The notes beneath the pieces are model-generated. The model saw only the letters and a program-made list of their open reading frames with translations, was not told where the DNA came from and searched no databases. From a virus, in IMG/VR virus record IMGVR_UViG_3300029957_000012, positions 1 to 45,011 of that record: a stretch of DNA of 45,011 nt. One strand, given 5' to 3'. Made by a program: the position numbers and the translations under genes. This document shows positions 7,493 through 45,011 of the stretch, one piece after another. Position 1 is the first letter of the stretch; each line of letters begins with the position of its first letter.

Positions 7493-7623
7493 TGATAACC
7501 TTGCAAGAAGCTTGGACAGCCAACCCGTTGCTCGTAGTCATCCCGTTCATCGGAACTGCACTCTGGATCTGGATTGCCCTCGTGATTGACCCTTACGACA
7601 CCCACGGAAGGCGACTTCGATGA
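7492..7623 (+). CDS. 43-residue single-pass membrane protein
   Basis: ATG 7492 overlaps the preceding TGA by one base, and the TGA at 7621-7623 overlaps the glycosyltransferase ATG (7620). The protein has a hydrophobic segment of about 22 residues (12-33, with two Trp) and a basic tail (His-Gly-Arg-Arg-Leu-Arg). The tail would sit in the cytoplasm by the positive-inside rule. The same size and coupling are seen for the membrane miniprotein at 557, although the two do not look homologous. Function unknown. Confidence 0.65.
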   Translation: MITLQEAWTANPLLVVIPFIGTALWIWIALVIDPYDTHGRRLR

Positions 7624-8696
7624 AGATCCTGATGACAGGGATGACCTCGAGGGGTATCGGCAGCCAGAAGCTAAAGCACGACTACGTGGCGCTGAGCGAC
7701 ATCCTCGCCAGGTCCCTAGTCGAGCTCGGGCACACCGTGGACATCGGCAGGGTAGACCCGCGCGAGGACCTGGACGAGTACGACGCTGCCCTCGTGCTAG
7801 TCTACTGGGTGTCCTCGCTGAGCTCCCACTACGTGCACGAGGCGTCCCTCGCCCTCTCGAAGCTGGGCAAGCGAGCCGCCGTCTACGTGGACGACTGGCG
7901 AGCCCAGACCCTCGCTGACGACTACTACAACCACGTCGAGAAGCCCATAGGGTGGTCGCGTCACCGCGATCGCTTCCGCAAGAACCTGTGGGATCAGCTG
8001 ACTCCGGAGGAGGTCGAGCTCGGCAGGGAGGCGCTCCTCTCGATGACGCGCCCGGACCCCGCATTCAGGATGCTCGTGCCGCTCCACCCGTGGGGAGACG
8101 AGGCGCTCTTTCATCAGAGCACGATCCGTCAGCTCACGACGAGGATCACGCCCATCGACCCCACGCCGATGGTCCCGCTGCCCGCGATCTCCCGCAGGCG
8201 TCCCGAGGAGCGCGACCGCAGATGGGTGCTGGCGAGCATCCAAGAGCACGACAAGTGGCTGCGAGACCTAAAGCCAGAGTGGCCCGTCCTGCAGTTGGGC
8301 GGTGCCAAGAAGCTCGGCGGGGGAGTCAACCCAGGCAGAGCGGAGATGGGCAAGGTTGTCCCCGAGGCACAGGTCGTGCAGGCGTACGCCGACTCCTGGG
8401 GGATGCTCGTCCCGCCCTACGCGTCCTCCGGGAGCGGGTGGTGGCGTCCTCGCTACACGTTCGCGGCGCATGCAGAGGCCGTCGTGCTCGCAGCGCCAGC
8501 TGACGCGGCTCGCCTAGGCGACCCGTTCCTCTACTCGCTAGACGAGGTCGAGCGCATGGAGGCGTCTTCCCTAGACGCCGTAGCCGCGTGGCAGAAGGCA
8601 CAGCACGACGCCCTCGCGTGGAGCAAAGAGCGCTTGCTAGAGACGCTCCAAGAGGTAGTCTCGGAGAGGGCCGCCTCCGGCAGGACGACCTCCTAG
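7620..8696 (+). CDS. GT-B fold glycosyltransferase, candidate DNA (hydroxymethylcytosine) glycosyltransferase
   Basis: 358 residues, ATG 7620 coupled to the upstream stop. The N-terminus (MKILMTGMTSRGIGS) is a typical GT-B first strand and Gly-rich loop. The C-terminal half holds a sugar-nucleotide domain pattern: a Pro-Pro-Tyr-x3-Gly-Ser-Gly-Trp-Trp-Arg-Pro-Arg-Tyr stretch near residues 263-278, then an Ala-rich helix. There is no signal peptide or membrane segment, so it acts in the cytoplasm. Its place in the replication half, away from virion genes, together with the dCMP hydroxymethylase at 39714, suggests DNA as acceptor. This is inference; a small-molecule or protein acceptor is possible. 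The glycosyltransferase fold itself is fairly well supported. Confidence 0.65.
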   Translation: MKILMTGMTSRGIGSQKLKHDYVALSDILARSLVELGHTVDIGRVDPREDLDEYDAALVLVYWVSSLSSHYVHEASLALSKLGKRAAVYVDDWRAQTLADDYYNHVEKPIGWSRHRDRFRKNLWDQLTPEEVELGREALLSMTRPDPAFRMLVPLHPWGDEALFHQSTIRQLTTRITPIDPTPMVPLPAISRRRPEERDRRWVLASIQEHDKWLRDLKPEWPVLQLGGAKKLGGGVNPGRAEMGKVVPEAQVVQAYADSWGMLVPPYASSGSGWWRPRYTFAAHAEAVVLAAPADAARLGDPFLYSLDEVERMEASSLDAVAAWQKAQHDALAWSKERLLETLQEVVSERAASGRTTS

Positions 8697-23744: not shown

Positions 23745-23768
23745 TCCTCAGCCGTCTCCTAGTACCTC

Positions 23769-23800
23769 AAGGCCCGACCGAAAGTCGGGCCTTTTGGTTT
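23769..23800 (+). terminator. Intrinsic terminator after capsid and tail tube genes
   Basis: AAGGCCCGAC (23769-23778) pairs perfectly with GTCGGGCCTT (23784-23793) around CGAAA, then TTTTGGTTT. The last T starts a -10-like box TAGGAT (23800-23805), so the end of one unit is fused to the start of the next. Confidence 0.9.
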
Positions 23801-23805
23801 AGGAT
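23800..23805 (+). promoter_or_regulatory. -10 box fused to the terminator, before the glycosylation cassette
   Basis: TAGGAT is preceded by GGTT and followed after 4-5 bases by GCTACGC, as at 36752-36757, where a clear -35 box exists. No -35 box is evident here. It lies 28 bases before ATG 23834. Confidence 0.45.
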
Positions 23806-23833
23806 GGGGCTACGCACGGAAAGGAACGAGCAG

Positions 23834-31544: not shown

Positions 31545-31545
31545 G

Positions 31546-33357: not shown

Positions 33358-33367
33358 GCAGAGGATA

Positions 33368-33373
33368 TAGGAT
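33368..33373 (+). promoter_or_regulatory. Candidate leaderless -10 box before the fibre gene
   Basis: TAGGAT ends 6 bases before ATG 33380; TAGGATACCCGCATG differs at one base from the sequence at 17797-17811. GAGGA nearby could serve as ribosome site instead. Confidence 0.4.
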
Positions 33374-33379
33374 ACCCGC

Positions 33380-34315
33380 ATGACACAACGCAGCCGCTTC
33401 TTCGACTCGTCTGCGGGCGACCGCATCTATACCTCCGATGCCTGGGCCCAGGTGGTCACGGCCATCAACACGGACGGCGTGGTCTCGGGGTCAGGCGCGG
33501 GCGCCCAGATGGGTGTCATCCAGAGCACTCCCGCGGCGATGACCGTGAAAGTCGGTCTCGGGCAGGTCCTCATCCAGGGCTACTACCTCGAGGTCTACTC
33601 GGCCGCCGAGTCCCTCTCGATCACTGCGGCGAACTCGTCCAACCCGCGCATCGATCGCATCGTCGCGCGTCGCGACCTGTCCGGGCGCACGTGCCTCCTG
33701 GCCGTCCTCACGGGCACCCCCGCGGCGACCCCCGCCGCTCCCGCGCTGACTCAGAACGCGGCCGGGATCTGGGAGATATGCCTCGCTACGGTGTACGTGG
33801 CAGCCGGCGCTACCTCGATTGTCACAGCCAGCATCACGGACACGCGCGCGTTCGCGCAGGGTCCCGATGTCGTCGCCACTCTGTCGCCCTCGGGCGGGCA
33901 CAGGCACGACGGAGCGGACTCGCGTACCGTGCGCTACACCGACCTCGGCAACGTCCCGGCGGAGTTCGCGCCGACCGACCACGGGCACACGTCGAGCGGA
34001 GACGGCGGTACCCTCGCGTGGAGCACGATCACGGGGAAACCTTCCTACTACGCGCCCACTGACCACGGCCACACCGCGTCCGGCGACGGCGGAACGGTCG
34101 CCTGGTCAAGCGTCACCGGGCGGCCCTCGACCTACGCGCCGAGCGCGCACGCGACGACGCACGAGACGGGCGGGTCGGACGCGTTCACAGCCGCGAGTAT
34201 CGGCGGCCACAACCGTCAGTCAGCGGGCGGCGGGTCTGCGGGGCCGAATGTCTGGGTAGGAACGTCTGACCCCGGGGGGTCCGCCTCCGAGGGCGACATC
34301 TGGATCGCGGGTTAG
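33380..34315 (+). CDS. Tail fibre / minor tail protein with repeated His-Gly-His units
   Basis: 311 residues, ATG 33380. The N-terminal 155 residues match the common phage minor tail start: Arg-Ile-Tyr-Thr-Ser-Asp-Ala-Trp-Ala, Ile-Gln-Gly-Tyr-Tyr-Leu-Glu-Val-Tyr, then Asn-Pro-Arg-Ile-Asp-Arg-Ile-Val-Ala-Arg-Arg-Asp. From about residue 195 two near-identical 28-residue units (APTDHGHT...GDGGT...ITGKPSYY type) and a third partial unit form a repeated collagen-free fibre. The end is Gly/Ser-rich. Such units build thin trimeric fibres and vary in number between relatives. It probably takes part in host binding. Confidence 0.8.
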   Translation: MTQRSRFFDSSAGDRIYTSDAWAQVVTAINTDGVVSGSGAGAQMGVIQSTPAAMTVKVGLGQVLIQGYYLEVYSAAESLSITAANSSNPRIDRIVARRDLSGRTCLLAVLTGTPAATPAAPALTQNAAGIWEICLATVYVAAGATSIVTASITDTRAFAQGPDVVATLSPSGGHRHDGADSRTVRYTDLGNVPAEFAPTDHGHTSSGDGGTLAWSTITGKPSYYAPTDHGHTASGDGGTVAWSSVTGRPSTYAPSAHATTHETGGSDAFTAASIGGHNRQSAGGGSAGPNVWVGTSDPGGSASEGDIWIAG

Positions 34316-34321
34316 ACCTTC

Positions 34322-34927
34322 GTGACTGTCTTCGGCCGCTACGGCAAGCTCACCGCTGAAATTTACTACCCGTCCTACGCTGAGAACCAGAACTGCGAGT
34401 TATTCGCAGTTCCCGTTACTGGCAAGATGACCCGCCTTGGTGCGTGGTTGGCCATCAGTACTTTCGCCGGATGGGACGGGACCCACATGCCGGCCACGCG
34501 TCTGTGCGTCTGGAATAGTTCTGGCGTCCTCCTCGCCTACTCAGATCAGTTCTGGCCGTCGTCCGCGTCCCTCGTTCGATACGAGATGGACTTGCTCTCC
34601 CAGCTTTCCGTAGCCGCCGGGCAATACGTGTACATCGGCTTCTGGACTTACAAGGCATACGATATCGGGGTCTCGTTCGGGTCTGCAACGGGCAGTACGC
34701 ACTACTGGAGCGGGAATACGGGAACTGGCCCGACGAATATCTCGTCGGGAGTAGGCCACGACAACTACCAGGTGAACGCCTACGCCTACGTGACCCCTGG
34801 AGCCAGCGGGAAGGTTCGTCGTTCGGGCGCGTGGAGCGCGGTGAGCGCGAAAGTTCGCCGGTCCGGAGGGTGGGCGACTCCGTCTGGAGTTCACGTCCGG
34901 CGCGGCGGATCCTGGGTGACGCTGTGA
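34322..34927 (+). CDS. Minor tail / receptor-binding beta protein with C-terminal repeats
   Basis: 201 residues from GTG 34322, six bases after the fibre stop. Residues 1-155 form a beta-sandwich-like domain rich in Tyr and Trp. The last 45 residues hold three repeats around Val-Arg-Arg-Ser/Gly-Gly-x-Trp (KVRRSGAW, KVRRSGGW, HVRRGGSW). These repeated tips are known at the ends of phage tail proteins and may bind the host surface. Base composition is a little less GC-rich than that of its neighbours, which fits exchange of host-range modules. The next gene starts within its stop (GTGA at 34924). Confidence 0.7.
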   Translation: MTVFGRYGKLTAEIYYPSYAENQNCELFAVPVTGKMTRLGAWLAISTFAGWDGTHMPATRLCVWNSSGVLLAYSDQFWPSSASLVRYEMDLLSQLSVAAGQYVYIGFWTYKAYDIGVSFGSATGSTHYWSGNTGTGPTNISSGVGHDNYQVNAYAYVTPGASGKVRRSGAWSAVSAKVRRSGGWATPSGVHVRRGGSWVTL

Positions 34928-35298
34928 CGCCGCGCAAGACCATAGTTACGACGACGACTGACGATAATTCCGGACTGAGCGGGAGCGACGTCTTCAAGCT
35001 AATGGAGCACATCGACCTGAAGGTTGACGGCGTCAAGAGAGAGATCATGGGCGTCATAGTCGAGGGTCGCGTCGCGCACACGCACGAGCACGAGACCCAG
35101 CAGGTCGCCCAGGCTCAGATCCTCGACCCAATTCAGAAGTGGTTCGAGAAGGTCCACCGCGAGGACGAGCGCCGAGATGCCCGGATGCGTCCGCTCGTCC
35201 AGGCGGCTACCTGGGTCACTAACCACTGGATCGTCTCCGCGTCTGCCGTCGGGCTGGCGCTCGCTGGTCTCACCCATATAGGAGTAATTCGACCGTGA
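34924..35298 (+). CDS. Membrane-anchored protein, possible XhlA-like holin partner
   Basis: 124 residues from GTG 34924. A polar Thr-rich start is followed by a long charged helix (about 20-90, with His/Glu/Gln-rich middle, probably coiled coil) and one membrane helix (about 101-118, Trp-Ile-Val-Ser-Ala...Leu-Ala-Gly-Leu). One C-terminal transmembrane segment after a coiled coil is the layout of XhlA-like hemolysin/holin proteins. It directly precedes the endolysin gene, which starts in its stop (GTGA at 35295). Confidence 0.6.
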   Translation: MTPRKTIVTTTTDDNSGLSGSDVFKLMEHIDLKVDGVKREIMGVIVEGRVAHTHEHETQQVAQAQILDPIQKWFEKVHREDERRDARMRPLVQAATWVTNHWIVSASAVGLALAGLTHIGVIRP

Positions 35299-36275
35299 CT
35301 GACACCTTCCACCCCCAGCTAGGACTGATCGCTCGAGATCCGGAACAGGAGGCGATGTCGCTCCCAGCGCTCGCCGATCTCGGAGCGCTCCCGACTCCTC
35401 CGGTCGAGATGCACAACATCGAACTCGTTCCTGACAAGGACATGCTCGGGAACGACGTCTGGGGAGACTGTGTCTTCGCGGCCATCGAGAATAACAGGCG
35501 CATCGCCGCCGCCGCCCTCGGAGTCCCGATCGCGCGGATGACCGCCGCGCAAGTCGTGGACGCCTACAAGAAGTTCACGGGCGCGACGACTCCTCCGGGA
35601 CCGGGCGCCGTCATCCTGAAGGCGCTCGCCTGGGCTCACAAGTACGGCTGGGGCGGCAACGCGCTCCTGGCCTACGCGGACGTCCCTCGTACCGAACTCG
35701 CTTACCGCGAGGCCGTCAACGAGTTCAAGTCGATCGTCGCGGGAGTCGAGCTCAAGACCCCGCAGAAGTACCCCGCGAAGGTCTGGGCAGACCTCGGCGG
35801 AGCGAACTACGGCGGCCACGGAGTGGCCGGCGGGACCGAGATCCCGGGCTACGACTGTTTCAAGACCTGGGGCTACCTGGTCAAGGCGACCCCCAACTTC
35901 ATGAACAAGCAAGGCCAGGAAGTCCTGGTCCTCGTCTGGGACTTTCAGTGGAAGACCCTGACGTACGAGCGCCAGGTTCAGCTCGCCACGGACTACCAGA
36001 CGCTCACAGGGAAAGCCTGGCCTGGGCCCGCGCCCGTCGCGCCGCCGACTCCTCCCGTCCCGCCCGTTCCGCCGACTCCCACGCCGCCAGCCGCTCGCAA
36101 GACGTTCACGGTCACCACGCAGAAGACCATCCACGACGTGGCACTCGCGGTCCACGGCAATCCGCGCCTGCTCCTTCGCTGGAACCAGGGCCGCTACGGC
36201 CTCAGCGACGGCGCCGGGTCGAGCCTCTACCAGGCGGTCAAGCCCGGATGGGTGCTGTTCGTCACGGCGTCGTAG
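35295..36275 (+). CDS. Putative endolysin: cysteine peptidase-like domain plus LysM-like domain
   Basis: 326 residues from GTG 35295. Residues 45-230 include Leu-Gly-Asn-Asp-Val-Trp-Gly-Asp-Cys59-Val-Phe-Ala-Ala, an active-site Cys pattern like that of papain or C39 peptidases, and Gly-Gly-His175-Gly as the likely partner. A Pro-rich linker (about 245-268) leads to a C-terminal LysM-like segment (FTVTTQKTIHDVALAVHGN, about 273-291, ending in a Trp-Val-Leu-Phe-Val strand) that would bind peptidoglycan. There is no signal peptide, so release needs a holin. No amidase, lysozyme or other lysin is visible in the genome, so this is the best candidate for host lysis. Confidence 0.65.
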   Translation: MTDTFHPQLGLIARDPEQEAMSLPALADLGALPTPPVEMHNIELVPDKDMLGNDVWGDCVFAAIENNRRIAAAALGVPIARMTAAQVVDAYKKFTGATTPPGPGAVILKALAWAHKYGWGGNALLAYADVPRTELAYREAVNEFKSIVAGVELKTPQKYPAKVWADLGGANYGGHGVAGGTEIPGYDCFKTWGYLVKATPNFMNKQGQEVLVLVWDFQWKTLTYERQVQLATDYQTLTGKAWPGPAPVAPPTPPVPPVPPTPTPPAARKTFTVTTQKTIHDVALAVHGNPRLLLRWNQGRYGLSDGAGSSLYQAVKPGWVLFVTAS

Positions 36276-36285
36276 GAAGTCGCGT

Positions 36286-36314
36286 TGGACAGGACGGCCG
36301 ATCGAGGTTAGGAT
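36286..36314 (+). promoter_or_regulatory. Promoter of the TTGGACA family, P5
   Basis: TTGGACA at 36286-36292 and TAGGAT at 36309-36314, with a 16-base gap from the end of the first box. It lies 10 bases after the endolysin stop and 39 bases before ATG 36353 (ribosome site AAGGAGAAG). Confidence 0.7.
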
Positions 36315-36318
36315 CGCC

Positions 36319-36333
36319 TGGTCTCTGAGACCA
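36319..36333 (+). promoter_or_regulatory. Palindrome at the start site of P5, possible operator
   Basis: TGGTCTC-T-GAGACCA is a perfect 7-base inverted repeat. It begins 5 bases after the -10 box, so it covers the expected transcription start. A dimeric repressor could block this promoter. No other exact copy was noticed. Confidence 0.55.
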
Positions 36334-36352
36334 ACTCGCACCAAGGAGAAGC

Positions 36353-36697
36353 ATGCTCAACTCTGCTGTCGTCTGGCTGCGCAACCAGTGGGTCAAGATC
36401 CCCGACTGGTTCCGCGCGGCTATCGTCTACGCGGTGACAGTAACCGTCGCCCTCGGCCAGAAGTTCACCTGGACATTCCCGGCGAGCTTCCAGGAGGCCG
36501 CCAGCGAAGTCGGCGCGTTCCTCGTGATCCTGCTCCCGGCGCTCGTCGCCGTCTTCAGGACGCGGGTGCTGCCATTCGTCGTGAACTGGTACATGGATAC
36601 GTTCGGGGTCTCTGACGCTCGCGAGATCGGGTCGGCCTCGACCTACACGTCGGGTCGCGTCCAGCAGCGTACGTTCTGGTTCATCGCGCGCGACTAG
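36353..36697 (+). CDS. Membrane protein, likely holin
   Basis: 114 residues, ATG 36353. Two hydrophobic segments (about 23-38 and 51-66) lie between a Trp- and Arg-containing N-terminus and a polar C-terminal tail of about 45 residues. Size, two membrane helices and position next to the endolysin gene suit a class II holin. It has its own promoter with a possible operator, which would time lysis. A hairpin terminator follows. Confidence 0.65.
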   Translation: MLNSAVVWLRNQWVKIPDWFRAAIVYAVTVTVALGQKFTWTFPASFQEAASEVGAFLVILLPALVAVFRTRVLPFVVNWYMDTFGVSDAREIGSASTYTSGRVQQRTFWFIARD

Positions 36698-36718
36698 ACG
36701 CTCGTAGGAAGTCGCTGC

Positions 36719-36752
36719 AAACCGAGGGTGGACATTCGTCCGCCCTCGGTTT
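36719..36752 (+). terminator. 15-bp terminator-like hairpin spanning promoter P6
   Basis: Bases 36719-36733 pair with 36738-36752 (15 pairs, one G-T) around ATTC; the arms start AAACCGAGGG and end CCCTCGGTTT. The hairpin can stop transcription from the holin gene in either direction. Its left arm holds the -35 box and its last base starts the -10 box of promoter P6. Confidence 0.8.
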
Positions 36753-36757
36753 AGGAT
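36729..36757 (+). promoter_or_regulatory. Promoter of the TTGGACA family, P6, embedded in a hairpin
   Basis: TGGACA (36729-36734), 17 bases, TAGGAT (36752-36757). It drives the gene at 36815 and probably the nucleotide metabolism operon. The overlap with the hairpin is described in the terminator entry. Confidence 0.75.
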
Positions 36758-36814
36758 CTGCGCTACGCCGACCGGCGAACACAGTAAACGAACCACTCGA
36801 GAGGAACTCACCCG

Positions 36815-37333
36815 ATGAACGACTGGCTTACCGACCTCAAGGCCCACGAACCCTGCACTGGGGGCTACCAGTGGGCACGAGACAACAACATCGCCTCTCT
36901 CGCCGAGGCGTTCGCCAAGCTCGAACGTGGCGACTGGTGGCTGTGGCTCGCCAGTGCGTATAAGGTCGAACTCGACAAGCCCCGACTCGTGACGTTCGCG
37001 GCCGACTGCGCCGAGCGCGCCCTGCCGAAGTTCGAGGACCGCTATCCCGATGACGCCCGACCCCGCAAGGCCATTGAGGCGGCCCGCGCATGTGTGACGT
37101 GTCCGTCGCCTGAGACTCGCGCCGCCGCCTACGCCGCCTCCGCCGTCGGCGCCGCCGCCTACGCCGCCGACGCCGCCGCCCGCGCCACCGACGCCGCCGA
37201 CGCCGCCGCCTACGCCGCCCACGCCGCCGACGCCGCCGCCTACGCCGCCCACGCCGCCGCCTACGCCGCCGAGCGTCAGTGGCAGGCGGACCGGCTCCGT
37301 GAGCTGTTCCCCGAGCACTCACGTCGTGCCTAG
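36815..37333 (+). CDS. Ala-repeat protein of the putative immunity protein (Imm-5-like) type
   Basis: 172 residues, ATG 36815 with GAGAGGAAC upstream. The N-terminal 95 residues (an early Pro-Cys-x3-Tyr-x-Trp, then Gly-Asp-Trp-Trp-Leu-Trp-Leu-Ala and Cys-Ala-Glu...Arg-Pro-Arg-Lys-Ala-Ile-Glu-Ala-Ala) are those of a family named putative immunity protein and found in phages and actinobacteria. Residues 103-160 are almost pure Ala with Tyr, Asp and His at regular places, encoded by GCC runs; this is a long helix of low complexity. The true role is unknown; I see no toxin beside it. It is first after promoter P6. Confidence 0.7.
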   Translation: MNDWLTDLKAHEPCTGGYQWARDNNIASLAEAFAKLERGDWWLWLASAYKVELDKPRLVTFAADCAERALPKFEDRYPDDARPRKAIEAARACVTCPSPETRAAAYAASAVGAAAYAADAAARATDAADAAAYAAHAADAAAYAAHAAAYAAERQWQADRLRELFPEHSRRA

Positions 37334-37400
37334 CGCATCCACGGGCGCGGCGCGCGCAGAGTCGCGCGTCGCGTCGACATTCCTAGAAGGAGACCCCTCA

Positions 37401-37847
37401 ATGGCCCAAGCACGTGAGCTATCCTCGAAGCAGGAGGCTGCGATCCGCGCGACGGCGCTCGAGGTCCAGCTCCCAGACGGGGTGACAGACGTCGCCTGCG
37501 TCTCGGAAGGAACTGTTGGCGAGCGGTTCACCAGCGGCGACTTCAAGGGAGTCGGCGGGTCAACCAAGTTCGGCGTCGCGTGGGTCGTCCGCGGGCGCGA
37601 GAAGTCAGAGCCGATCGCGCTGTACGACACCCCGCAGGAGGCGAGCGTACTCTTCGATCTCCTCACGGGACCGGAAGGAGAGCTATGGCACAGGAAGGAG
37701 CGTCGGAAGGCGCTGATCCAGGAACTCGAAGCGAAGGAGTCCGCGGAGGAGGCGGAGGCGAAGGCAACGCTGAAGGCGGCGAACGCCGGTGGCGCTGGCT
37801 CGAGTCGACCGAAGCGCTCCAGCGGGAGGCGTTCCGCTCGCCGGTAG
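37401..37847 (+). CDS. Protein of unknown function with basic low-complexity tail
   Basis: 148 residues, ATG 37401 with AGAAGGAGA upstream. Residues 1-95 look like a compact alpha/beta domain (Ala-Ile-Arg-Ala-Thr-Ala-Leu-Glu-Val, then Gly-Val-Ala-Trp-Val-Val-Arg strand). From about 95 the chain is Lys/Glu/Ala-rich and ends in Ser/Arg. The last 163 bases also encode the start of the next gene in another frame (37685). No family recognised. Confidence 0.7.
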   Translation: MAQARELSSKQEAAIRATALEVQLPDGVTDVACVSEGTVGERFTSGDFKGVGGSTKFGVAWVVRGREKSEPIALYDTPQEASVLFDLLTGPEGELWHRKERRKALIQELEAKESAEEAEAKATLKAANAGGAGSSRPKRSSGRRSARR

Positions 37848-38152
37848 ACGCGATCCGCGCGGATGACGCGCTGGTCGCGCAGTCACTCAAGGAGAACGTC
37901 CTCGCCGCGGTCATCGAGCTCGGAGAAGTCACGCGCGAGTTCTCGTGGAAGCCGTGGGCCCACGACGGGCCGTTCGTGAACCGTGAGCGAGTCATCGAGG
38001 AGCTCGTAGACGTCGCTCACTTCATCGGCAACATGCTCGTCAACCTCGACGCGGGCGACGACGAGTGGGAGCGCGAGTACCAGCAGAAGCAGCGAACCAA
38101 CCGACGGCGCCAGATCGTCGGCTACTCAGCCAGGAAAGGAGACCGGGGTTGA
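37685..38152 (+). CDS. Dimeric dUTPase/dCTPase-fold (MazG-like) nucleotide pyrophosphatase
   Basis: 155 residues from ATG 37685, which has a strong GGAAGGAGAG ribosome site; there is no other good start before the conserved core. Residues 1-35 are Gly/Glu-rich and overlap the upstream gene. The core has Glu78-x2-Glu81 (IELGEVTREF), a Trp-Lys-Pro-Trp motif, then Glu106-x2-Asp109 (EELVDVAHFIGNML), the metal-binding pattern of all-alpha NTP pyrophosphatases. The Trp-x-Pro-Trp and His-Phe-Ile-x-Asn signatures favour the dUTPase/dCTPase branch, to which T4 dCTPase belongs. It would cut dCTP or dUTP to the monophosphate. With the dCMP hydroxymethylase at 39714, dCTP is the attractive substrate. Substrate choice is inference. 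Confidence 0.7.
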   Translation: MAQEGASEGADPGTRSEGVRGGGGGEGNAEGGERRWRWLESTEALQREAFRSPVDAIRADDALVAQSLKENVLAAVIELGEVTREFSWKPWAHDGPFVNRERVIEELVDVAHFIGNMLVNLDAGDDEWEREYQQKQRTNRRRQIVGYSARKGDRG

Positions 38153-38628
38153 AGATCACGTACGAGTTCGACGGTCGTAAGACGACCGCCAGAGTAGAGG
38201 CGTCCGCGTGCGCCGGGGAGATCCTGACGCCGGGAACAATCGGCGTCGTCGGGAACGGCACGGCGACCGCCGAGCCGGGAGACGTCTTCGACTACACGGT
38301 CGGGCGGAAGATCGCTTCCGGTCGGGCCATCCAGGACTTCGGCGAGAAGCTCGAGCGACAGGGCCTCCTCGAGTCTCGCGCCGTCCCGAAGCAGAAGACT
38401 CCGCGCCCGGACTGGCAGCAGACCGCGACGTGGACTACCGCCGAGGGCGATGTCGTCCGCATCGGTCAGCTCGAAGACGAGCACCTCGTCAACATCATCA
38501 AGATGATCAGGCGCCGACCAGGAGCGGACCGCGTCCTCGCCACGCCCCTCGGGACAGCGCTCGGACTCGAAGTGACGCGCCGGTTCTTCGAGCAGCTCGA
38601 CCGCGTGATCGCGGACATCTGCCGATGA
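38149..38628 (+). CDS. Phage protein of unknown function
   Basis: 159 residues from TTG 38149, overlapping the previous stop (TTGA), with AAAGGAGA at 38134-38141. Residues 1-60 look like a beta-rich part. Near residues 100-120 is a motif of the type Gly-Gln-Leu-Glu-Asp-Glu-His-Leu-Val-Asn-Ile-Ile that I know from several phage proteins without known role. The C-terminus is helical. It lies between the pyrophosphatase and DUF4406 genes, so a role in nucleotide metabolism is possible but not shown. Confidence 0.65.
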   Translation: MKITYEFDGRKTTARVEASACAGEILTPGTIGVVGNGTATAEPGDVFDYTVGRKIASGRAIQDFGEKLERQGLLESRAVPKQKTPRPDWQQTATWTTAEGDVVRIGQLEDEHLVNIIKMIRRRPGADRVLATPLGTALGLEVTRRFFEQLDRVIADICR

Positions 38629-39074
38629 AGATCTACGTCGCGGGTCCGATGACGGGCATTCCCTCCTTCAACTTCCCGGCATTCGACGCGGCCGCCGCTC
38701 AGCTCCGCGACGACGGCCACGAGGTCGTCACTCCCTCGGAGATGGACGATCCCGAAGACCGCGCGAACGCGATGGCGTCACTCGACGGCCACTACATCGG
38801 GGGCGTCTCGCGCAACAAGACGTGGGGCGACTTCCTCGCGCGCGACGTGAAGCTCCTCGCGGACGAGGGCATCGACGCCGTGCGAGTCCTCCCCGGGTGG
38901 GAGCGATCGAGCGGCGCTCGCTTCGAGACGTTCGCGGCGATCGGCCTGAAGACCCCCGTCGAGCGACTCGACGGCACGCGCGTCAGCCTGGTCCAGCTCC
39001 TGATGGCGTGGACCGGCCTCTCGCGGTCTGGACTCATCGGCCTCGTGACTGGCACGAAGCAGGCGCGTCGATGA
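38625..39074 (+). CDS. DUF4406, nucleoside 2-deoxyribosyltransferase-like protein
   Basis: 149 residues from ATG 38625 (ATGA overlap). The start MKIYVAGPMTGIPSFNFPAF is the hallmark of DUF4406, related to nucleoside 2-deoxyribosyltransferases and to the nucleotide N-hydrolase DNPH1/Rcl. The Asn-Phe-Pro-Ala-Phe block and an Asp-Val-Lys-Leu-Leu segment (about 71-75) follow; the last 30 residues are a basic helix-turn-helix-like tail. The fold cleaves or transfers N-glycosidic bonds of deoxynucleotides. Here it may remove unwanted nucleotides or help to make modified ones. Confidence 0.8.
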   Translation: MKIYVAGPMTGIPSFNFPAFDAAAAQLRDDGHEVVTPSEMDDPEDRANAMASLDGHYIGGVSRNKTWGDFLARDVKLLADEGIDAVRVLPGWERSSGARFETFAAIGLKTPVERLDGTRVSLVQLLMAWTGLSRSGLIGLVTGTKQARR

Positions 39075-39646
39075 CGTGGCGTCGAAGGGGTCTCACGGGC
39101 GGGTCGACCGCCGACCTCCAGGCCGTCTCAGACGCCGTCGAGCGCGCCGATCTCCGTCGCGTGCGATCCTGCGAATGCCCGCCCGTGTGGCAGGGCATCC
39201 TGCCTCCCCCGTGTCGCGTGCATAACCCCTCGTCAGAGAGGACGATGACCACGACTACAACCTCGTTCGAGACATACGAGAGCAACCCCCTCCGGCAGCG
39301 ACAGGTCACGGGCGCCGTGAAAGACAACCTCGGAAAGTCTCGAGTCGACCTCCTCCCATTCGTCGTGCTCGTCGCTGTCGGGCGCGTCCTCGGCTTCGGG
39401 GCCGCGAAGTACAAGCCGAACAACTGGCGACTCGGGCTCTCGTGGAGCGACACGATCGCGTCCGCGCTGCGCCACATCTTCGCCTTCGCAGAGGGCGAGG
39501 ACATCGACTCTGAGTCGGGCCAGATGCACGTGGACAACGCGATCGCTCAGCTCATGTTCCTGAGCCACTACTGGCACACCCGTACGGGAAAGGATGACCG
39601 CTGGTCATCCCTCCCCGCCGAGGAGAAGGAGCAGTCGAAGGCATGA
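39071..39646 (+). CDS. DUF5664 (dATP/dGTP diphosphohydrolase N-terminal type) protein with zinc-like N-terminus
   Basis: 191 residues from ATG 39071 (ATGA overlap). The core from about residue 75 (Lys-Asp-Asn-Leu-Gly-Lys-Ser-Arg-Val-Asp-Leu-Leu-Pro, Gly-Ala-Ala-Lys-Tyr, Asn-Asn-Trp-Arg, Ala-Leu-Arg-His-Ile) is the common phage DUF5664 domain, linked by name to dATP/dGTP diphosphohydrolases. The first 58 residues hold Cys-x-Cys-Pro-Pro...Pro-Pro-Pro-Cys-x2-His, a zinc-ribbon-like motif. A later ATG at 39245 would give the core alone, with only GAGAGGAC very close to it. I prefer the coupled start. It probably acts on deoxynucleotides. Confidence 0.75.
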   Translation: MTWRRRGLTGGSTADLQAVSDAVERADLRRVRSCECPPVWQGILPPPCRVHNPSSERTMTTTTTSFETYESNPLRQRQVTGAVKDNLGKSRVDLLPFVVLVAVGRVLGFGAAKYKPNNWRLGLSWSDTIASALRHIFAFAEGEDIDSESGQMHVDNAIAQLMFLSHYWHTRTGKDDRWSSLPAEEKEQSKA

Positions 39647-39717
39647 CAGACCTCATATGGGTAGCCATTCTCTTCATCGTCATGTTCTGGGCGCTCGCCC
39701 CGAAGACGCGCCGATGA
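39643..39717 (+). CDS. 24-residue membrane miniprotein
   Basis: ATG 39643 overlaps the upstream TGA, and the TGA at 39715-39717 overlaps the next ATG (39714). The peptide is one hydrophobic helix (Leu-Ile-Trp-Val-Ala-Ile-Leu-Phe-Ile-Val-Met-Phe-Trp) with Pro-Lys-Thr-Arg-Arg at the end. Without it, the 67-base gap in this fully overlapping operon would be unexplained. It may matter only as a translation bridge, or be a true membrane peptide. Confidence 0.55.
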   Translation: MTDLIWVAILFIVMFWALAPKTRR

Positions 39718-40553
39718 AGACGTACTCGACGCTCAGCGAGGCGTGGGTCCTCGAGCTCGCGCACACTCGGGCGTTCGGCGAGGAGTTCGCTCCTCGAGGC
39801 CAGGCGACCATCGAGACGCGGTGGTCTCAGTTCGCGATCGACCGCCCGCTCACCTTCCCGGTCCGCGCCGAGGGCCGGGAGTTCAGGAACGTCATCGGCA
39901 TCCTCGAGGCGCTGTCGCTGGTCGGCCAGTTCAGCGTCCCCGAACTGTTCACTGACCGCGTTCGCAAGTTCCTTGACTTCGAGGACGCAGGCGTCTTCCA
40001 CGGGTCGTACGGCGCTCGCATCGCGGGTCGGCTCGGCGACCTCGTGGACTTGCTGAAACGCGATCCCGACTCGCGCCAGGCGGTGCTCACGATCTTCGAC
40101 TCGAGGTCAGACCTCGGCGCTGCCAAGCGCGACATCCCGTGCACCATCGCGATCCACTTCTTGGTCCGCGACGGGGAGCTCGAGATGCGTGTCACGATGC
40201 GCTCCAACGACCTCTGGCTGGGCACGCCGTATGACCTGCTCCAGTTCGCGGTCCTGCAGGCCAGCGTCGCGCAGGCGCTCGGTCTCGTGCCCGGGAAGTA
40301 CGTCCACGCGGCCGGCTCCCTCCACCTCTACGAGCGGGACTTCGGCCCCGCCTCGAAGATAGGCGAGCCGCTCAACTACGCGGAGTTTCCGTTCCCGCTG
40401 TGGTCTCCCGACATGACGGACATCGGGATGATCAGTCAGCGCGCTCGAGACCTCGCGTTCAACCGCGTCCACCCCGATACCGCCTTCGAGCACTGGGTCC
40501 ACGAGCTGGTCTGGCCCGAGGGTACCTGGTTCCCGGGGATGTCGCCGGCGTGA
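39714..40553 (+). CDS. dCMP hydroxymethylase (thymidylate synthase fold)
   Basis: 279 residues from ATG 39714. The thymidylate synthase core is clear: Arg in DPDSRQ, catalytic Cys143 (IPCTIAIHF), Arg163-Ser-Asn-Asp166, Gly-Thr-Pro-Tyr173-Asp174 and His204-Leu-Tyr206. Asp174 stands where dUMP-specific enzymes have Asn (E. coli Asn177). T4 dCMP hydroxymethylase has Asp here, so the substrate is probably dCMP. The one-carbon donor would be methylene-tetrahydrofolate. The N-terminal 80 residues differ from thymidylate synthases. The product would be 5-hydroxymethyl-dCMP; a dCMP methylase giving 5-methyl-dCMP is the main alternative. It lies in one operon with the dCTPase-like gene. Confidence 0.8.
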   Translation: MKTYSTLSEAWVLELAHTRAFGEEFAPRGQATIETRWSQFAIDRPLTFPVRAEGREFRNVIGILEALSLVGQFSVPELFTDRVRKFLDFEDAGVFHGSYGARIAGRLGDLVDLLKRDPDSRQAVLTIFDSRSDLGAAKRDIPCTIAIHFLVRDGELEMRVTMRSNDLWLGTPYDLLQFAVLQASVAQALGLVPGKYVHAAGSLHLYERDFGPASKIGEPLNYAEFPFPLWSPDMTDIGMISQRARDLAFNRVHPDTAFEHWVHELVWPEGTWFPGMSPA

Positions 40554-40975
40554 GACGCCTCATCATCGTGGGCGAGGCCCCAGGGAAGATCGGCATCTCG
40601 CCGACCCTCCCGGGCCTCGCCCTCACGGGCAACACGGGTCGCCACCTCGCCGACATCGCGGGGTGGCCGTTCGGCCTCTACCTGGCGCAGGTGGACAGGC
40701 GCAACCTGTTCTACGACGTTCAGCCGAAGTGGGATGTCGAGAAGGCGCGCGCCGCGGCGCGCAGGCTGGAGGCCTCCTTCTCGGGCGACAAGGTCATCCT
40801 GATGGGGACCCGAGTAGCCGAGGCGTTCGGCGCGATCGACCGCCCGCTCTACGAGTGGTGGGGAGATCACTACTGCAACTTCGCGCGTATCCCGCACACG
40901 TCCGGGCGCAACCGCGTGTGGAACGATCCCGCCGAACGAGCGCGCGCTCGTGCGTTCCTGAAGCCGCTGATATGA
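40550..40975 (+). CDS. Uracil-DNA glycosylase superfamily-like protein
   Basis: 141 residues from GTG 40550 (GTGA overlap). It starts with Ile-Ile-Val-Gly-Glu-Ala-Pro-Gly-Lys (about 4-12), the usual first motif of family 4/5-type glycosylases and relatives. It has a strand Val-Ile-Leu-Met-Gly-Thr-Arg-Val-Ala near 82-90 and ends with Ile-Pro-His-Thr-Ser-Gly-Arg-Asn-Arg-x-Trp-Asn (about 113-124), the leucine-loop-like motif of this fold. No Fe-S cysteine set is seen. It may cut an unwanted base or sense modified nucleotides. A related domain appears at the N-terminus of the polymerase. Confidence 0.7.
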   Translation: MRRLIIVGEAPGKIGISPTLPGLALTGNTGRHLADIAGWPFGLYLAQVDRRNLFYDVQPKWDVEKARAAARRLEASFSGDKVILMGTRVAEAFGAIDRPLYEWWGDHYCNFARIPHTSGRNRVWNDPAERARARAFLKPLI

Positions 40976-42498
40976 CGCGCGTCGAAGGCGAGGACTTCGT
41001 CATCGAGTCGTCGCGCGGCAAGGAGCTCAAGCAGGCCGGCGCTCGGTGGGACCCGCGCCTCAAGGCGTGGAAGCTCGCCGCGACGAGGATGAACTGGATC
41101 ATCCTCGCAGAGCTCGAGCTCGCCAACGTCTGGGACGACCCAGCGGCGCGCCCGTCTCCTCCCGAGATAACGGACGAGCGGCTGCTCCCGCACCAGCGAC
41201 GAGCCGTAGAGCGCCTCGTGCAGGCGCGCCACGGCGAGCTCAAGGCGGTCTTCCCGGGAGGCGGGAAGACGTTCATCGCCGTCGCTGCAGCCGATCTCTC
41301 GGTGCCCGACGATCGCGTGGTAGTCGTCGCGCCTGCCTCCCTCCTGAAGACCTGGGAGGCCGAGATCCGGAAGTGGCAGCGAGTCCCGGGCGACGTGTAC
41401 GTGGTCCAGGGGAAGCTCGACTACGATCGCGCTCGAGACGCGCGCTGGATCGTGATGTCGTGGGACAAGATGACGCGCGAGGCCGACTCCTTCGGGATCG
41501 GCTGGCCCGTCCTCGTCCTGGACGAGAGCGTGCTCGCAAAGTCGCGCGGGTCGAAGCGTTTCAAGACGCTGCAGAAGATCCGTCGCGGGTTCGCGCGCGT
41601 GTGGCTGCTCAGCGGCTCGCCGACCACGCGCTATCCAGACGACCTCTGGACTCAGCTCCACGTCATCTGGCCGCGCGCGTTCCCGTCCTACTGGCGGTTC
41701 GCCGAGCGGTACTGCACCGTCGAGGAGACGCCGTGGGCACGGATCGTGACGGGCGCTCGCGCCGGTCGCAACGCCGCCGAGGAGAACTCCGACCTCATCG
41801 ACGTGGTCACCGAGGATGACGCCGGCCTCGACCTACCCGAGTACCTGTTCGAGCCGCCCGTACTGACCGACATGCGGCCGAAGCAGGCGCGCGCCTACAG
41901 GTCGATGGCCAAGGACTTCATCGCCGAGCTCGGTGACGGCACGCAGGTCGTCTCGGCCAACGAGGCCGCGAAGCTCACCCGCCTGCAGCAGATCGCATCC
42001 TGGTGGGACGGCGAGTCCGGGAAGCACGACGCGGTCGCCGACCTGATCCGATCGTTCGAGCCGCCGTACCTGATCTGGACGCACTGGAGGGACGGCGCGC
42101 AGGCTCTCCGGGACCGCCTTGAGGACATCGGAGTCGACGCGCGACTCGTGAACGGCGGTACGCGCGACCGCGACGAGGAGGAGTGGCTCGCCGCGTTCAA
42201 GGCGGGCACGCTCGAGGCGCTCGTCCTGTCGCTCGGCGTCGGGAAGTTCGGGCACACGTTCACGAAGACCCGGACGATCATCGGCGTGGATCGCACCTTC
42301 ATGGCGGACGACCTCTACCAGTCGTCCTTCCGCGTTCGCCGCATCGGGCTCGAGCACCGCCCCGTCTGGGTGCCCGTGGTCGCGGCAGGGACCGTAGACG
42401 AGCTGACCGTCGGCGACAACATCGAGGCGAAGCTGACCAGCATCTCCAAGATCACGCGAGCAGACCTCGCGTCACTGCTGAAAGGGATGGGACGTTGA
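40972..42498 (+). CDS. SNF2/SSL2-type superfamily 2 helicase
   Basis: 508 residues from ATG 40972 (ATGA overlap). A small N-terminal domain (1-60, Lys-Gln-Ala-Gly-Ala-Arg-Trp-Asp-Pro-Arg-Leu-Lys-Ala-Trp) precedes the helicase core: His-Gln-Arg-Arg-Ala-Val (Q-like motif), Walker A Gly-Gly-Gly-Lys99-Thr100, motif II Asp184-Glu-Ser (not DEAH), motif III Leu-Ser-Gly-Ser-Pro-Thr, and motifs V/VI (Ser-Leu-Gly-Val-Gly-Lys...Ser-Ser-Phe-Arg-Val-Arg-Arg-Ile-Gly). Phages use such helicases in recombination-dependent replication and repair. It sits next to the resolvase gene, which fits branch processing. Confidence 0.9.
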   Translation: MTRVEGEDFVIESSRGKELKQAGARWDPRLKAWKLAATRMNWIILAELELANVWDDPAARPSPPEITDERLLPHQRRAVERLVQARHGELKAVFPGGGKTFIAVAAADLSVPDDRVVVVAPASLLKTWEAEIRKWQRVPGDVYVVQGKLDYDRARDARWIVMSWDKMTREADSFGIGWPVLVLDESVLAKSRGSKRFKTLQKIRRGFARVWLLSGSPTTRYPDDLWTQLHVIWPRAFPSYWRFAERYCTVEETPWARIVTGARAGRNAAEENSDLIDVVTEDDAGLDLPEYLFEPPVLTDMRPKQARAYRSMAKDFIAELGDGTQVVSANEAAKLTRLQQIASWWDGESGKHDAVADLIRSFEPPYLIWTHWRDGAQALRDRLEDIGVDARLVNGGTRDRDEEEWLAAFKAGTLEALVLSLGVGKFGHTFTKTRTIIGVDRTFMADDLYQSSFRVRRIGLEHRPVWVPVVAAGTVDELTVGDNIEAKLTSISKITRADLASLLKGMGR

Positions 42499-42923
42499 AA
42501 AAACACTTCTGGCTGGCGATCGACCCGGGCATCACTACGGGGTGGGCCCTCCTAGACGACGCTGGAGAGATCCAGGCCACGTCCGTCTGGGGAACGGCTG
42601 AGCTCAAGCAGTCGCTCGACATCCTGATCCGCGAGGCGCACTTCGCGGGGTACTCGCTCACGATGGTGATCGAGACGATGCCATCTGCCGGGCGCATGGG
42701 AGCGCTGGGTCAGAAACTCGAAGCCGTGAGGCGCGACATCATGTCGATCGTCGCGGAGACGTACGAGATCCCGTATGTCTCAGTCATGCCGGGCGAGTGG
42801 AAGCCGTCGAGGATCGCGAAGACGACGCGCGTGCCGTCTCGGTTCCGCGACACCCCGCTGATGGTCCATCAGAAGGACGCCGTGAAGATGGGCAGATATG
42901 TCATCGAGAAAGTCCGAAGATAA
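42495..42923 (+). CDS. RuvC-like Holliday junction resolvase
   Basis: 142 residues from TTG 42495 (TTGA overlap). The RNase H-like fold is shown by Ile-Asp10-Pro-Gly-Ile-Thr-Thr-Gly-Trp-Ala, then Val-Ile-Glu60, and His-Gln-Lys-Asp128-Ala near the end. These acidic residues would bind the metals. The enzyme cuts four-way junctions made by recombination. It overlaps the helicase gene. It is the last gene of this operon; the stop TAA is followed at once by promoter P4. Confidence 0.8.
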   Translation: MKKHFWLAIDPGITTGWALLDDAGEIQATSVWGTAELKQSLDILIREAHFAGYSLTMVIETMPSAGRMGALGQKLEAVRRDIMSIVAETYEIPYVSVMPGEWKPSRIAKTTRVPSRFRDTPLMVHQKDAVKMGRYVIEKVRR

Positions 42924-42925
42924 CA

Positions 42926-42955
42926 TTGGACAACGCCGCTCGAAGACGTTAGGTT
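42926..42955 (+). promoter_or_regulatory. Promoter of the TTGGACA family, P4, leaderless
   Basis: TTGGACA (42926-42932), 17 bases, TAGGTT (42950-42955), then only 6 bases (TACACC) before ATG 42962. Both boxes are good, and no ribosome site exists, so the transcript should begin at or next to the start codon. Confidence 0.85.
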
Positions 42956-42961
42956 TACACC

Positions 42962-43207
42962 ATGAACGCGCACTCGACCTCAACGATTATCCCGGGATCC
43001 GATGTTCACCTGTTCGACATCGCGACCCCGGGATACCAGACGGTTCGGGTATTCGTCGGGTACGCCGACGAGGAGTCGTACATCGTGGACGAGACCGGCG
43101 AGACGGACGAGTTCAAGACGACCGACTCCCTGATCAACGAACTCCGCGCGTGCTACCACTTGACCGACGAGCAACTCGCTTCGGTCAACCTTCTCGTACA
43201 GGACTGA
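42962..43207 (+). CDS. Small acidic protein read from a leaderless promoter
   Basis: 81 residues from ATG 42962. The N-terminus (about 1-35) has beta-strand character (Val-Arg-Val-Phe-Val-Gly-Tyr), the middle is acidic (Glu-Thr-Gly-Glu-Thr-Asp-Glu), and the C-terminus is helical. No family recognised. It is the first gene after promoter P4 and so a likely early protein. The stop overlaps the AAAGGAG of the next gene. Confidence 0.75.
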   Translation: MNAHSTSTIIPGSDVHLFDIATPGYQTVRVFVGYADEESYIVDETGETDEFKTTDSLINELRACYHLTDEQLASVNLLVQD

Positions 43208-43220
43208 AAGGAGTTCTTCG

Positions 43221-43502
43221 GTGTTCCACGTAGACCTCGACTGGACCGACTCTGATAGCTTCGAGTCGGATGAGAGCGATCGCGTAGTCGGCGCTATGGA
43301 TATGGCAGGTTTCGCGGCAGATACGTTCGGACTAACGCACGAGCTCATCGACCCGCGGGGACCGGGCGGAGGCTGGCCGATCATCAGGTTCACGGGCGAG
43401 CGCGACGCGATCGTCAAGCTCCTCCGCTACTACTTCGCCGGGTCCTCGTCCGATGCACGTCATGATGACGAGTACGAGCAGCTCATCGAGGTCGAGTCAT
43501 GA
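43221..43502 (+). CDS. Acidic protein, unknown function
   Basis: 93 residues from GTG 43221 with AAAGGAG at 43207-43213. It is very acidic (Asp/Glu/Ser runs at residues 5-22 and at the C-terminus), like some DNA-mimic proteins, but the middle is a normal mixed domain with a Gly/Pro-rich loop. I see no known motif. The next ATG (43499) overlaps its stop. Confidence 0.7.
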   Translation: MFHVDLDWTDSDSFESDESDRVVGAMDMAGFAADTFGLTHELIDPRGPGGGWPIIRFTGERDAIVKLLRYYFAGSSSDARHDDEYEQLIEVES

Positions 43503-43819
43503 GCTGGGCCACGATCGACTTCCAGAACGACCCCAACCTCGCGCGATCGACCGACTGCTACAAGCCGCCGCTCCTCGCCTACGTCGCGGACCGCGCGGAG
43601 CCGTCGTTCCGCGGCGGCGGATGGAAGATCCTCCACGCCAACGAGGCCGCGCAGGCCGTCGACATCAAGCGCGTCTCAGTCGTGAACGAGCTCGCTCAGA
43701 TGGCGAAGCGCGGCACCGTCGAAATCGACAACCTCGGCGACGGAGACTATCGCGTTCGCCTCACGCCCGCGGGCCAGGCAATCATCGACGCGGGCGCCGT
43801 CAGTGCCCATCGGAACTAG
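43499..43819 (+). CDS. Winged-helix-like small protein
   Basis: 106 residues from ATG 43499. Residues 45-95 fit a winged helix: Ala-Asn-Glu-Ala-Ala-Gln-Ala-Val-Asp-Ile as second helix, a recognition helix (Ser-Val-Val-Asn-Glu-Leu-Ala-Gln-Met-Ala), then a beta hairpin (Gly-Thr-Val-Glu-Ile...Tyr-Arg-Val-Arg-Leu). It could be a phage regulator acting on one of the repeated promoters or palindromes; there is no proof. The N-terminal part is uncharacterised. Confidence 0.65.
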   Translation: MSWATIDFQNDPNLARSTDCYKPPLLAYVADRAEPSFRGGGWKILHANEAAQAVDIKRVSVVNELAQMAKRGTVEIDNLGDGDYRVRLTPAGQAIIDAGAVSAHRN

Positions 43820-43828
43820 GAGGAGCGA

Positions 43829-44113
43829 TTGACGCACAAGGTACTCGCAACAAGACGGTTCATGATCTCACTCACAGGATCGACTGACGACCGTCTTGAA
43901 GCAGTCTTCAACCTCGTAATGAAGAACGATAGGAAGCACACACTGGCGATCCGGTCTGCAGAGATCGCTCTTCGAGGTAATCGAAGTACGCTCGAGATTA
44001 CAGGCGAATACACTGCCAAGGGCGCGTGGGAGTCAGATCTCACCCGGCGCTTCGTTCGCGCTTGTGCGAAGATTGGATGCGGGGCGCGTGTGCGCCTTGA
44101 GTACTTTCGCTGA
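43829..44113 (+). CDS. Small protein, less GC-rich than its neighbours
   Basis: 94 residues from TTG 43829, with AGGAGG just upstream (43817-43823). A basic, beta-alpha-beta-like protein (Lys-Val-Leu-Ala-Thr-Arg-Arg-Phe-Met-Ile-Ser-Leu start; Arg-Ser-Ala-Glu-Ile-Ala-Leu helix; Val-Arg-Leu-Glu-Tyr end). Its codons end in A or T far more often than those of the genes around it, which suggests a recent arrival. No family recognised. The stop overlaps the nuclease ATG by one base. Confidence 0.7.
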   Translation: MTHKVLATRRFMISLTGSTDDRLEAVFNLVMKNDRKHTLAIRSAEIALRGNRSTLEITGEYTAKGAWESDLTRRFVRACAKIGCGARVRLEYFR

Positions 44114-45011
44114 TGCCAACTGAGTCCACGGGCCAGGAGCACCTGACCCCCGTCAAGATCAAGTCGACCTCGGCGACCGAGCGCGGCGGGTTCAGGAAGT
44201 GCCGTCGCTCCTGGTTTTTGACGGTCGTCCACAGACTCGACGCTCAGGACGGGAACGTCAACTTCTTCCTCGGGACGATCTACCACCGGGCGCTCGAGGC
44301 GTACTACCGCGCGCAGATGGCGGGCCTCCCCGACGACGATCGCGACCTCGCCGCGCTCGACGCCTACCAGGACGCCTACGACGAGTACATGGCTCGGCTC
44401 GCGAGTCAGCTCGGGGCGCTGTGGACGTACGGCGAGCAGGGCTTCCGCGAGGCCGGCGAGCTGGGCATGGAGATGCTCCAGAACTACCTCGAGCGCGAGC
44501 GACGAGACCCGCTCCTAGACCACGTAAACGCGGTGGAGTTCCGAGTCAACGTACCTGTCCCGCATCCGGTTACGGGTCGCAAGGCGGGCGTCCTGAGCGT
44601 CCAGGCGGACGCCGTCGGGACGAAGGACGGCCTCCTCTCGGTCGCGGACCACAAGACCGCGTCGAGCAACGTGTCGTCCGCGCACCTCGACCTGGACGAT
44701 CAGCTAACCGCTGAGGTCTACGCCTGGTGGAAGGACTCCGGGGAGTTCCCGGAACAAGCGATCTACAACGTCTCGCTGAAGAAGGCGCCGCATGCGCCGA
44801 AGGAGCTCCAGCCCGACAAGAAGACCGGGAAGCGGAAGCTCTCGAAGGCCAAGAACCAGGTCACGACCTACGCGCTGTACCGCGGTGAGATCACGCTCCT
44901 CGGACTGGACGTGGCGGACTACACCGACTTCCTCGTGTTCCTCAAGGAGCGCGAAGAGAACGGCGAGGACGCGCTGTTCCGGCGCGAGGCGACGTTCCGC
45001 ACGCCCGACCA
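44113..45011 (+). CDS. PD-(D/E)XK nuclease (RecB/Cas4-like), N-terminal part
   Basis: ATG 44113; the frame is open to the window end and continues at base 3 to stop at 335 (367 residues in all). Seen: Cys30 in FRKCRRSW, His in Tyr-His-Arg-Ala-Leu-Glu-Ala (about 57-63), Asp166 in Gln-Ala-Asp-Ala-Val, the Asp179-His-Lys181 of the PD-(D/E)XK core, and Asp-Asp-Gln-Leu-Thr-Ala-Glu-Val-Tyr (motif QxxxY type, about 196-204). With the three C-terminal Cys this is the AddB/Cas4 layout with a 4Fe-4S cluster. It would resect ends to make single strands for the Sak4-like protein. Its transcript leads to the operon at 343. Confidence 0.9.
   Translation, partial: MPTESTGQEHLTPVKIKSTSATERGGFRKCRRSWFLTVVHRLDAQDGNVNFFLGTIYHRALEAYYRAQMAGLPDDDRDLAALDAYQDAYDEYMARLASQLGALWTYGEQGFREAGELGMEMLQNYLERERRDPLLDHVNAVEFRVNVPVPHPVTGRKAGVLSVQADAVGTKDGLLSVADHKTASSNVSSAHLDLDDQLTAEVYAWWKDSGEFPEQAIYNVSLKKAPHAPKELQPDKKTGKRKLSKAKNQVTTYALYRGEITLLGLDVADYTDFLVFLKEREENGEDALFRREATFRTPD
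44882..45011. repeat. Right copy of terminal direct repeat
   Basis: This copy matches 1-130 except A at 45008 instead of C at 127. That change would turn an Ala codon into an Asp codon; it may be a sequencing error at the contig end or real variation. Confidence 0.9.

Follow-up and report, generated by a model that had tools for sequence, protein, structure and literature searches.

A predicted dCMP 5-hydroxymethylase of the thymidylate synthase fold and a possible glycosyltransferase partner in a closed 44.9-kb phage genome

Introduction

Which nucleotide does a phage enzyme of the thymidylate synthase fold act on when an aspartate stands where the Asn177 of E. coli ThyA is expected, and what may become of its product? 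The question is of interest, because hydroxymethylation of cytosine before its incorporation into phage DNA is a known protection against bacterial defences. The gene concerned lies in the virus record IMGVR_UViG_3300029957_000012, whose 45,011 bases (G+C 66%) were analysed as a whole and are here called the window. Bases 1-126 are identical to 44882-45007, an end overlap of 126 bases; the record itself carries no circular label. The phage map is circularly closed at about 44.88 kb, which makes the absence of a gene from it meaningful. At the nucleotide level, a megablast search with positions 30000-45011 found no relative among 50,697 phage records. The features discussed are collected in Table 1.

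Table 1. Positions in the window of the genes and sites discussed
Feature	Position	Strand	Remarks
GT-B glycosyltransferase-like protein, candidate partner	7620..8696	+	358 aa; phrog_14998 (unknown function)
All-alpha NTP pyrophosphatase (dUTPase_2/MazG-like), candidate dCTP/dUTP remover	37580..38152	+	domain about 37880-38100
DUF4406, nucleoside 2-deoxyribosyltransferase-like	38625..39074	+	two genes upstream of the enzyme
PF18909 domain (dATP/dGTP diphosphohydrolase, N-terminal)	39320..39601	+	inside ORF 38822-39646
Thymidylate-synthase-fold gene, predicted dCMP 5-hydroxymethylase	39714..40553	+	279 aa; PF00303
Arg121	40074..40076	+	equivalent of MilA Lys133
D140-I-P-C143-T144	40131..40145	+	nucleophile Cys; Asp at Cys-3 (hydroxymethylase mark); Thr at Cys+1
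R163-S-N-D-L-W-L-G-T-P-Y-D174	40200..40235	+	phosphate/sugar site and Asp replacing Asn177
His204/Tyr206 codons	40323-40331
UDG-superfamily-like protein	40550..40975	+	phrog_12275; Pfam match below cut-off

Fold and register of the enzyme

The protein is a member of the thymidylate synthase superfamily. It matches PF00303 with 71.3 bits (cut-off 24.3), is also matched by the PHROG thymidylate synthase families, and has equivalents of the active-site Cys and of Glu58, Tyr94, Arg166, His207 and Tyr209. An earlier note on this DNA had proposed that Asp174 takes the place of Asn177 of E. coli ThyA, and had listed Cys143, His204 and Tyr206 as kept. The translation of the gene bears out this numbering, and the replacement is confirmed in three ways: The distances from Cys143 to Asp174 (31 residues) and from there to His204 (30) are identical to those of Cys146, Asn177 and His207 in E. 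coli ThyA; in T4 gp42, Cys148 and Asp179 are likewise 31 residues apart; and a pairwise search aligns Asp186 of MilA under Asp174. At the level of sequence this register is not in doubt. The further claim of the note, that the enzyme should be active, is plausible, since the catalytic residues Glu65, Tyr99, Cys143, Asp166, His204 and Tyr206 are all retained.

An AlphaFold model (pLDDT 84.9) places Asp174 within a helix (171-188) that follows a strand (155-166); residues 134-141, which include Asp140, are a poor region with pLDDT below 50. The best solved relatives by sequence are the structures of MilA (phmmer 2.8e-21), and MilA also comes first when the model is searched with Foldseek (2.2e-17). 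With VIA-align 2, the model superimposes on MilA with Z 26.3 (rmsd 2.4, 257 aligned residues), followed by the dCMP hydroxylases 9iqc (23.4) and 9iqu (22.7), while the best thymidylate synthase reaches about 20.8.

An aspartate common to the clade

Searching IMG/VR with the window enzyme yielded 59 relatives of 42-53% identity. A profile scan, the patterns of which exclude position 174, found 486; only the best 80 of these were retained. When 129 family proteins were clustered at 80%, 34 representatives remained, and Asp140, Thr144 and Asp174 are present in all of them. A wider alignment, from which rows shorter than 225 aa and identical rows had been removed beforehand, has Asp at 174 in 92 of 96 rows. 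The four with Asn are E. coli ThyA, two rows of SPO1 gp29, of which one is truncated, and a relative of SPO1 gp29 from Goe10. Judged from these alignments, Asp174 is a character of the clade. The Asn-to-Asp switch of the earlier note thus stands as a difference from ThyA but not as an event in the phage itself; a recent change was rejected, because the 34 representatives show Asp174 to be fixed in a large clade of phages.

The family tree that the note had suggested was also built. In this maximum-likelihood tree of 55 rows, the window enzyme groups with its relatives from contigs L072 (the nearest, 65% identity), L085 and L002, the sets of two, three and five rows being starred, and apart from the thymidylate synthases. 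The latter, T4 gp42 and the uracil hydroxymethylases form separate starred groups; the tree gives no support for the deep order or for the placement of MilA and of RB69 ORF048c.

Substrate and product

Three positions are particularly telling: the third residue before the nucleophilic Cys (Cys-3), the one following it (Cys+1), and 174. They read D/T/D in the window enzyme. By alignment, the same triplet is found in MilA and in the gp42 proteins of T4, Aeromonas 25 and FBB1. E. coli ThyA and three phage td proteins (RB69, Aeromonas 25, FBB1) have L/H/N, SPO1 gp29 and IME392 have D/N/N, and RB69 ORF048c has E/T/D. The meaning of these residues is known from published work. Asp at 177 reads cytosine (PMC8670742; PMC5175136; PMC6400193). 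Asp, or alternatively Glu, at Cys-3 is a hydroxymethylase mark; the Asp activates water in T4 gp42, where D145N abolishes activity (PMC6400193). In MetaGPA, positions 177 and 147, the latter being Cys+1, were reported as the two most differential ones between cytosine-modified and unmodified phage contigs (PMC8670742). Finally, Arg and Ser at MilA positions 133 and 176 represent the dCMP-preferring state (PMC5175136). The window enzyme has Arg121 and Ser164 there. Asp140, Thr144, Arg121 and Ser164 had not been used in the earlier note; they lend its dCMP-type reading additional support.

All dCMP-hydroxymethylase markers that could be placed (Asp140, Thr144, Arg121, Ser164, Asp174) agree, with one exception. 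T4-type enzymes show a Ser-x-Tyr signature, i.e., Ser or Thr two residues before the active-site Tyr; the sequence alignment has Gly97-Ser98-Tyr99 here, where Ser98 directly adjoins Tyr99 and is Ala in most relatives. Because the Ser/Thr is missing, we do not file the protein as a strict T4-type dCMP hydroxymethylase. This Ser is also lacking in SPO1 gp29, which carries the annotation dUMP hydroxymethylase and has Ala instead. A further point against the reading is Gln122 in place of ThyA Arg127, as in most of the family. T4 gp42 itself shares the triplet and the Arg, Ser, Asp, His and Tyr of the site; it differs in the Ser mentioned, in its separate starred clade and in its identity of only about 31% over a partial match.

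From these residues, the protein is probably a folate-dependent dCMP 5-hydroxymethylase. Other readings have to be weighed. A dCMP 5-methylase would make 5-methyl-dCMP and be nature's equivalent of the Asn177Asp mutants of ThyA, and indeed this exchange alone suffices to convert thymidylate synthase to a dCMP methylase, as cited in PMC8670742. Yet the hydrophobic Leu143 of thymidylate synthase corresponds to Asp140, the water-activating residue in T4 gp42 (PMC6400193). Because of Asp140, hydroxymethyl-dCMP is the more likely product, and a methylase is improbable. Continued use of dUMP to form dTMP or hydroxymethyl-dUMP would agree with the annotation “thymidylate synthase” that most relatives in named phages carry. 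However, all known or canonical uracil enzymes compared (E. coli ThyA, the three td rows, SPO1 gp29), and also IME392, have Asn at 174, and the Leu at Cys-3 and His at Cys+1 that go with it in dUMP-type thymidylate synthases are absent as well, which leaves this option very unlikely.

MilA (5jnh, 5b6d) is the closest solved protein by fold and sequence, shares the Asp at Cys-3, the Thr at Cys+1 and Asp186, and prefers the ribonucleotide CMP, which invites the idea that the phage enzyme does so, too. MilA, however, has Lys133 and Ala176, neither of which is kept here, and serves an antibiotic pathway rather than phage DNA; its A176S/K133R double mutant, which has the residues of the phage enzyme, lost the CMP activity (PMC5175136). 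CMP as the preferred substrate is therefore hardly to be expected. Another candidate class are the flavin-dependent dCMP 5-hydroxylases (5-hodCMP synthases) known from RB69-like phages. Examples are RB69 ORF048c, which matches 9iqc over nearly its full length, and AfhB. They have been published as members of the thymidylate synthase superfamily, rank second among the structural neighbours, and RB69 ORF048c has Asp174 and Thr144 in common with the window enzyme. Their product would be 5-hydroxycytosine, and a sugar would be attached without a methylene bridge. But in RB69 ORF048c, Glu occupies Cys-3, the pterin-site Asp166 is replaced by Asn, Gly170 by Val and Tyr206 by Phe. The folate-type residues stand in the window enzyme and in each of the 34 family representatives, and the model scores higher with MilA than with 9iqc. 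The loss of the pterin Asp and the sugar-site Tyr, a distinction taken from one member of the hydroxylases, is not seen here. A hydroxylase is unlikely, too. The folate-dependent dCMP hydroxymethylase stays the preferred reading.

Gene neighbourhood

The pyrophosphatase gene upstream matches the dimeric dUTPase family. Such a dUTPase_2/MazG-like gene is the recurring neighbour: 39 of 59 loci of the window-protein scan and 44 of 73 of the profile scan have one close to the enzyme. By analogy with T4 gp56, so annotated, its product may remove dCTP. The order MazG/dUTPase-like, DUF4406, PF18909, enzyme, RuvC-like, RecB-like, Sak4, PolA is common to the window and the L072 and L085 contigs. The L002 contig shows the same order for the most part; in the place of DUF4406 it has an ORF that, read from its sequence, is dCMP deaminase-like. 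The pairing of DUF4406 with the enzyme recalls mildiomycin synthesis, where MilA is paired with the N-glycosidase MilB; a search for a solved relative that would make the DUF4406 protein a MilB-like N-glycosidase found none. The GTG start of the UDG-superfamily-like gene overlaps the stop of the enzyme by four bases, and a relative is found at the same place in L002. A further gene, 36815-37333, combines an Imm5-like domain with a long alanine-rich repeat tail.

In the closed genome, dCMP deaminase (PF00383), thymidylate kinase (PF02223) and DNMK (PF21448) were not found. Phosphorylation of hydroxymethyl-dCMP would therefore rest on the host or on unrecognised enzymes.

A GT-B glycosyltransferase as possible partner

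The fate of the modified cytosine may involve another gene, 7620-8696. Pfam has no match for its product. The model (pLDDT 82.6), however, has the GT-B fold: Structural Z is 18.3 with PimA, 17.3 with SenB, 16.6 with T4 beta-glucosyltransferase and 15.4 with T4 alpha-glucosyltransferase, the identity to the latter two being only about 12% and 9%, respectively, and Foldseek lists T4 beta-glucosyltransferase fourth (5.3e-6). The GT-B fold is a general one and no proof of DNA as acceptor, because PimA and SenB score as high as or above the T4 enzymes.

More can be learned from the distribution. The gene itself matches 12 of 50,697 phage records. With its relative L136 as query, 54 records were matched, 16 of them with at least 80% coverage, and these 16 are exactly H1-H16, the top of 1926 records matched by the hydroxymethylase. 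They represent perhaps five lineages (DSL-LC01, the Manatee Spring phage in two copies, and three Gordonia groups), so that the independent support amounts to fewer than 16 records. All six enzymes read among them (DSL-LC01, GodonK, MW202657, GMA2, Forza, Sixama) have the D/T/D triplet. The glycosyltransferase is present in 21 of 48 IMG/VR contigs selected through the enzyme (23 of 50 before the removal of two contigs to which the glycosyltransferase itself had led) and in 26 of 73 profile-scan loci, at least two members occurring in 24 of those 26. In the loci of the window-protein scan it was found in none of 59, nor in any of 24 IMG/VR contigs drawn from the same set, and it is absent from three of six named phage records: AXL3, PW916 and SPO1, the last having a uracil enzyme. 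Contig L073, found by the glycosyltransferase, is a fragment of 20 kb and lacks the enzyme.

Among the closest relatives, L072 has two tandem copies directly after the primase, where the window has one. In L002, none was found in the 7.4 kb after the primase. L085 has none either, but its contig ends fall exactly in the primase-to-glycosyltransferase interval, so that this absence carries no weight. Another 38 phage records show partial matches only, of which five were checked: Erwinia FBB1 and Aeromonas 25 have a T4-type gp42, Vibrio F86 and 6E35.1a a canonical thymidylate synthase only, and C48C1 neither. Since F86, 6E35.1a and C48C1 lack gp42, distant GT-B similarity alone is uninformative.

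In DSL-LC01 and in Erwinia phage FBB1, an annotated UDP-galactopyranose mutase adjoins the glycosyltransferase gene, which hints at a furanose sugar donor. The GT-B relatives with this neighbour lie at 3992-7137 of L078 (an actinophage) and at 3946-6071 of L188 (a T4-like Erwinia phage). The co-occurrence of the two genes suggests that the glycosyltransferase may be a partner of the hydroxymethylase. Tentatively, and with somewhat less than even confidence, we propose an unrecognised GT-B family, often in tandem pairs, that glycosylates hydroxymethylcytosine in the DNA of hydroxymethylase-carrying actinobacterial and freshwater phages, possibly with a furanose, as the mutase in DSL-LC01 and FBB1 hints.

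Three further glycosyltransferase genes were weighed as DNA modifiers: 14309-15133, 23699-25132 and 25135-26133. The first belongs to a stretch (14309-16800) in which a DXD-type glycosyltransferase (PF04488) directly precedes a C5-cytosine methyltransferase-like protein. The latter ends in a C-terminal helix-turn-helix, and L085 carries a copy of this methyltransferase with 59% identity. The other two, glycosyltransferase-like as well, lie between the genes of the major tail protein and the head-tail adaptor. Their relatives are found elsewhere in L072 and L085, as if the module 23699-26133 had moved. In the window as in L072, the surroundings are head and tail genes, and with this placement, glycosylation of the virion also fits.

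Proposed mechanism and significance

The chemistry may be pictured by analogy with published work on T4 and MilA. Cys143 would attack C6 of dCMP, the ring being bound and protonated by Asp174, as uracil is handled by Asn177 in ThyA. Methylene-tetrahydrofolate would donate the carbon, and water activated by Asp140 would turn the exocyclic methylene into hydroxymethyl, without reduction to methyl. The hydroxymethyl-dCMP would most likely be phosphorylated by host kinases and then incorporated into phage DNA, with dCTP possibly drained by the MazG/dUTPase-like enzyme. Thereafter, the GT-B glycosyltransferase might transfer a sugar to the phage DNA.

The kind of enzyme is not new. Asp177 as a mark of cytosine-modifying phages has been published (MetaGPA, eLife 2021, PMC8670742), with the same residue change and the same inferred substrate. 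That work is an association over 433 proteins; in the sections consulted, no GT-B family is named as a partner. What is new here is the possible partner. A partial literature search yielded no publication that deals with modified cytosine in Gordonia or freshwater actinophages, and we make no claim that nothing has been published on the partner family.

The present case adds a closed phage genome of 44.9 kb to the range of a known class of cytosine-modifying enzymes. Throughout a large clade of phages Asp174 is fixed, and many members of this clade bear the plain annotation of thymidylate synthase. The code of three positions (Cys-3, Cys+1, 177) separates all references compared, be they thymidylate synthases, uracil hydroxymethylases, cytosine hydroxymethylases or cytosine hydroxylases, which allows a sequence-based correction of annotations. 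The linked GT-B family, finally, makes the fate of hydroxymethylcytosine directly testable in cultured Gordonia phages.
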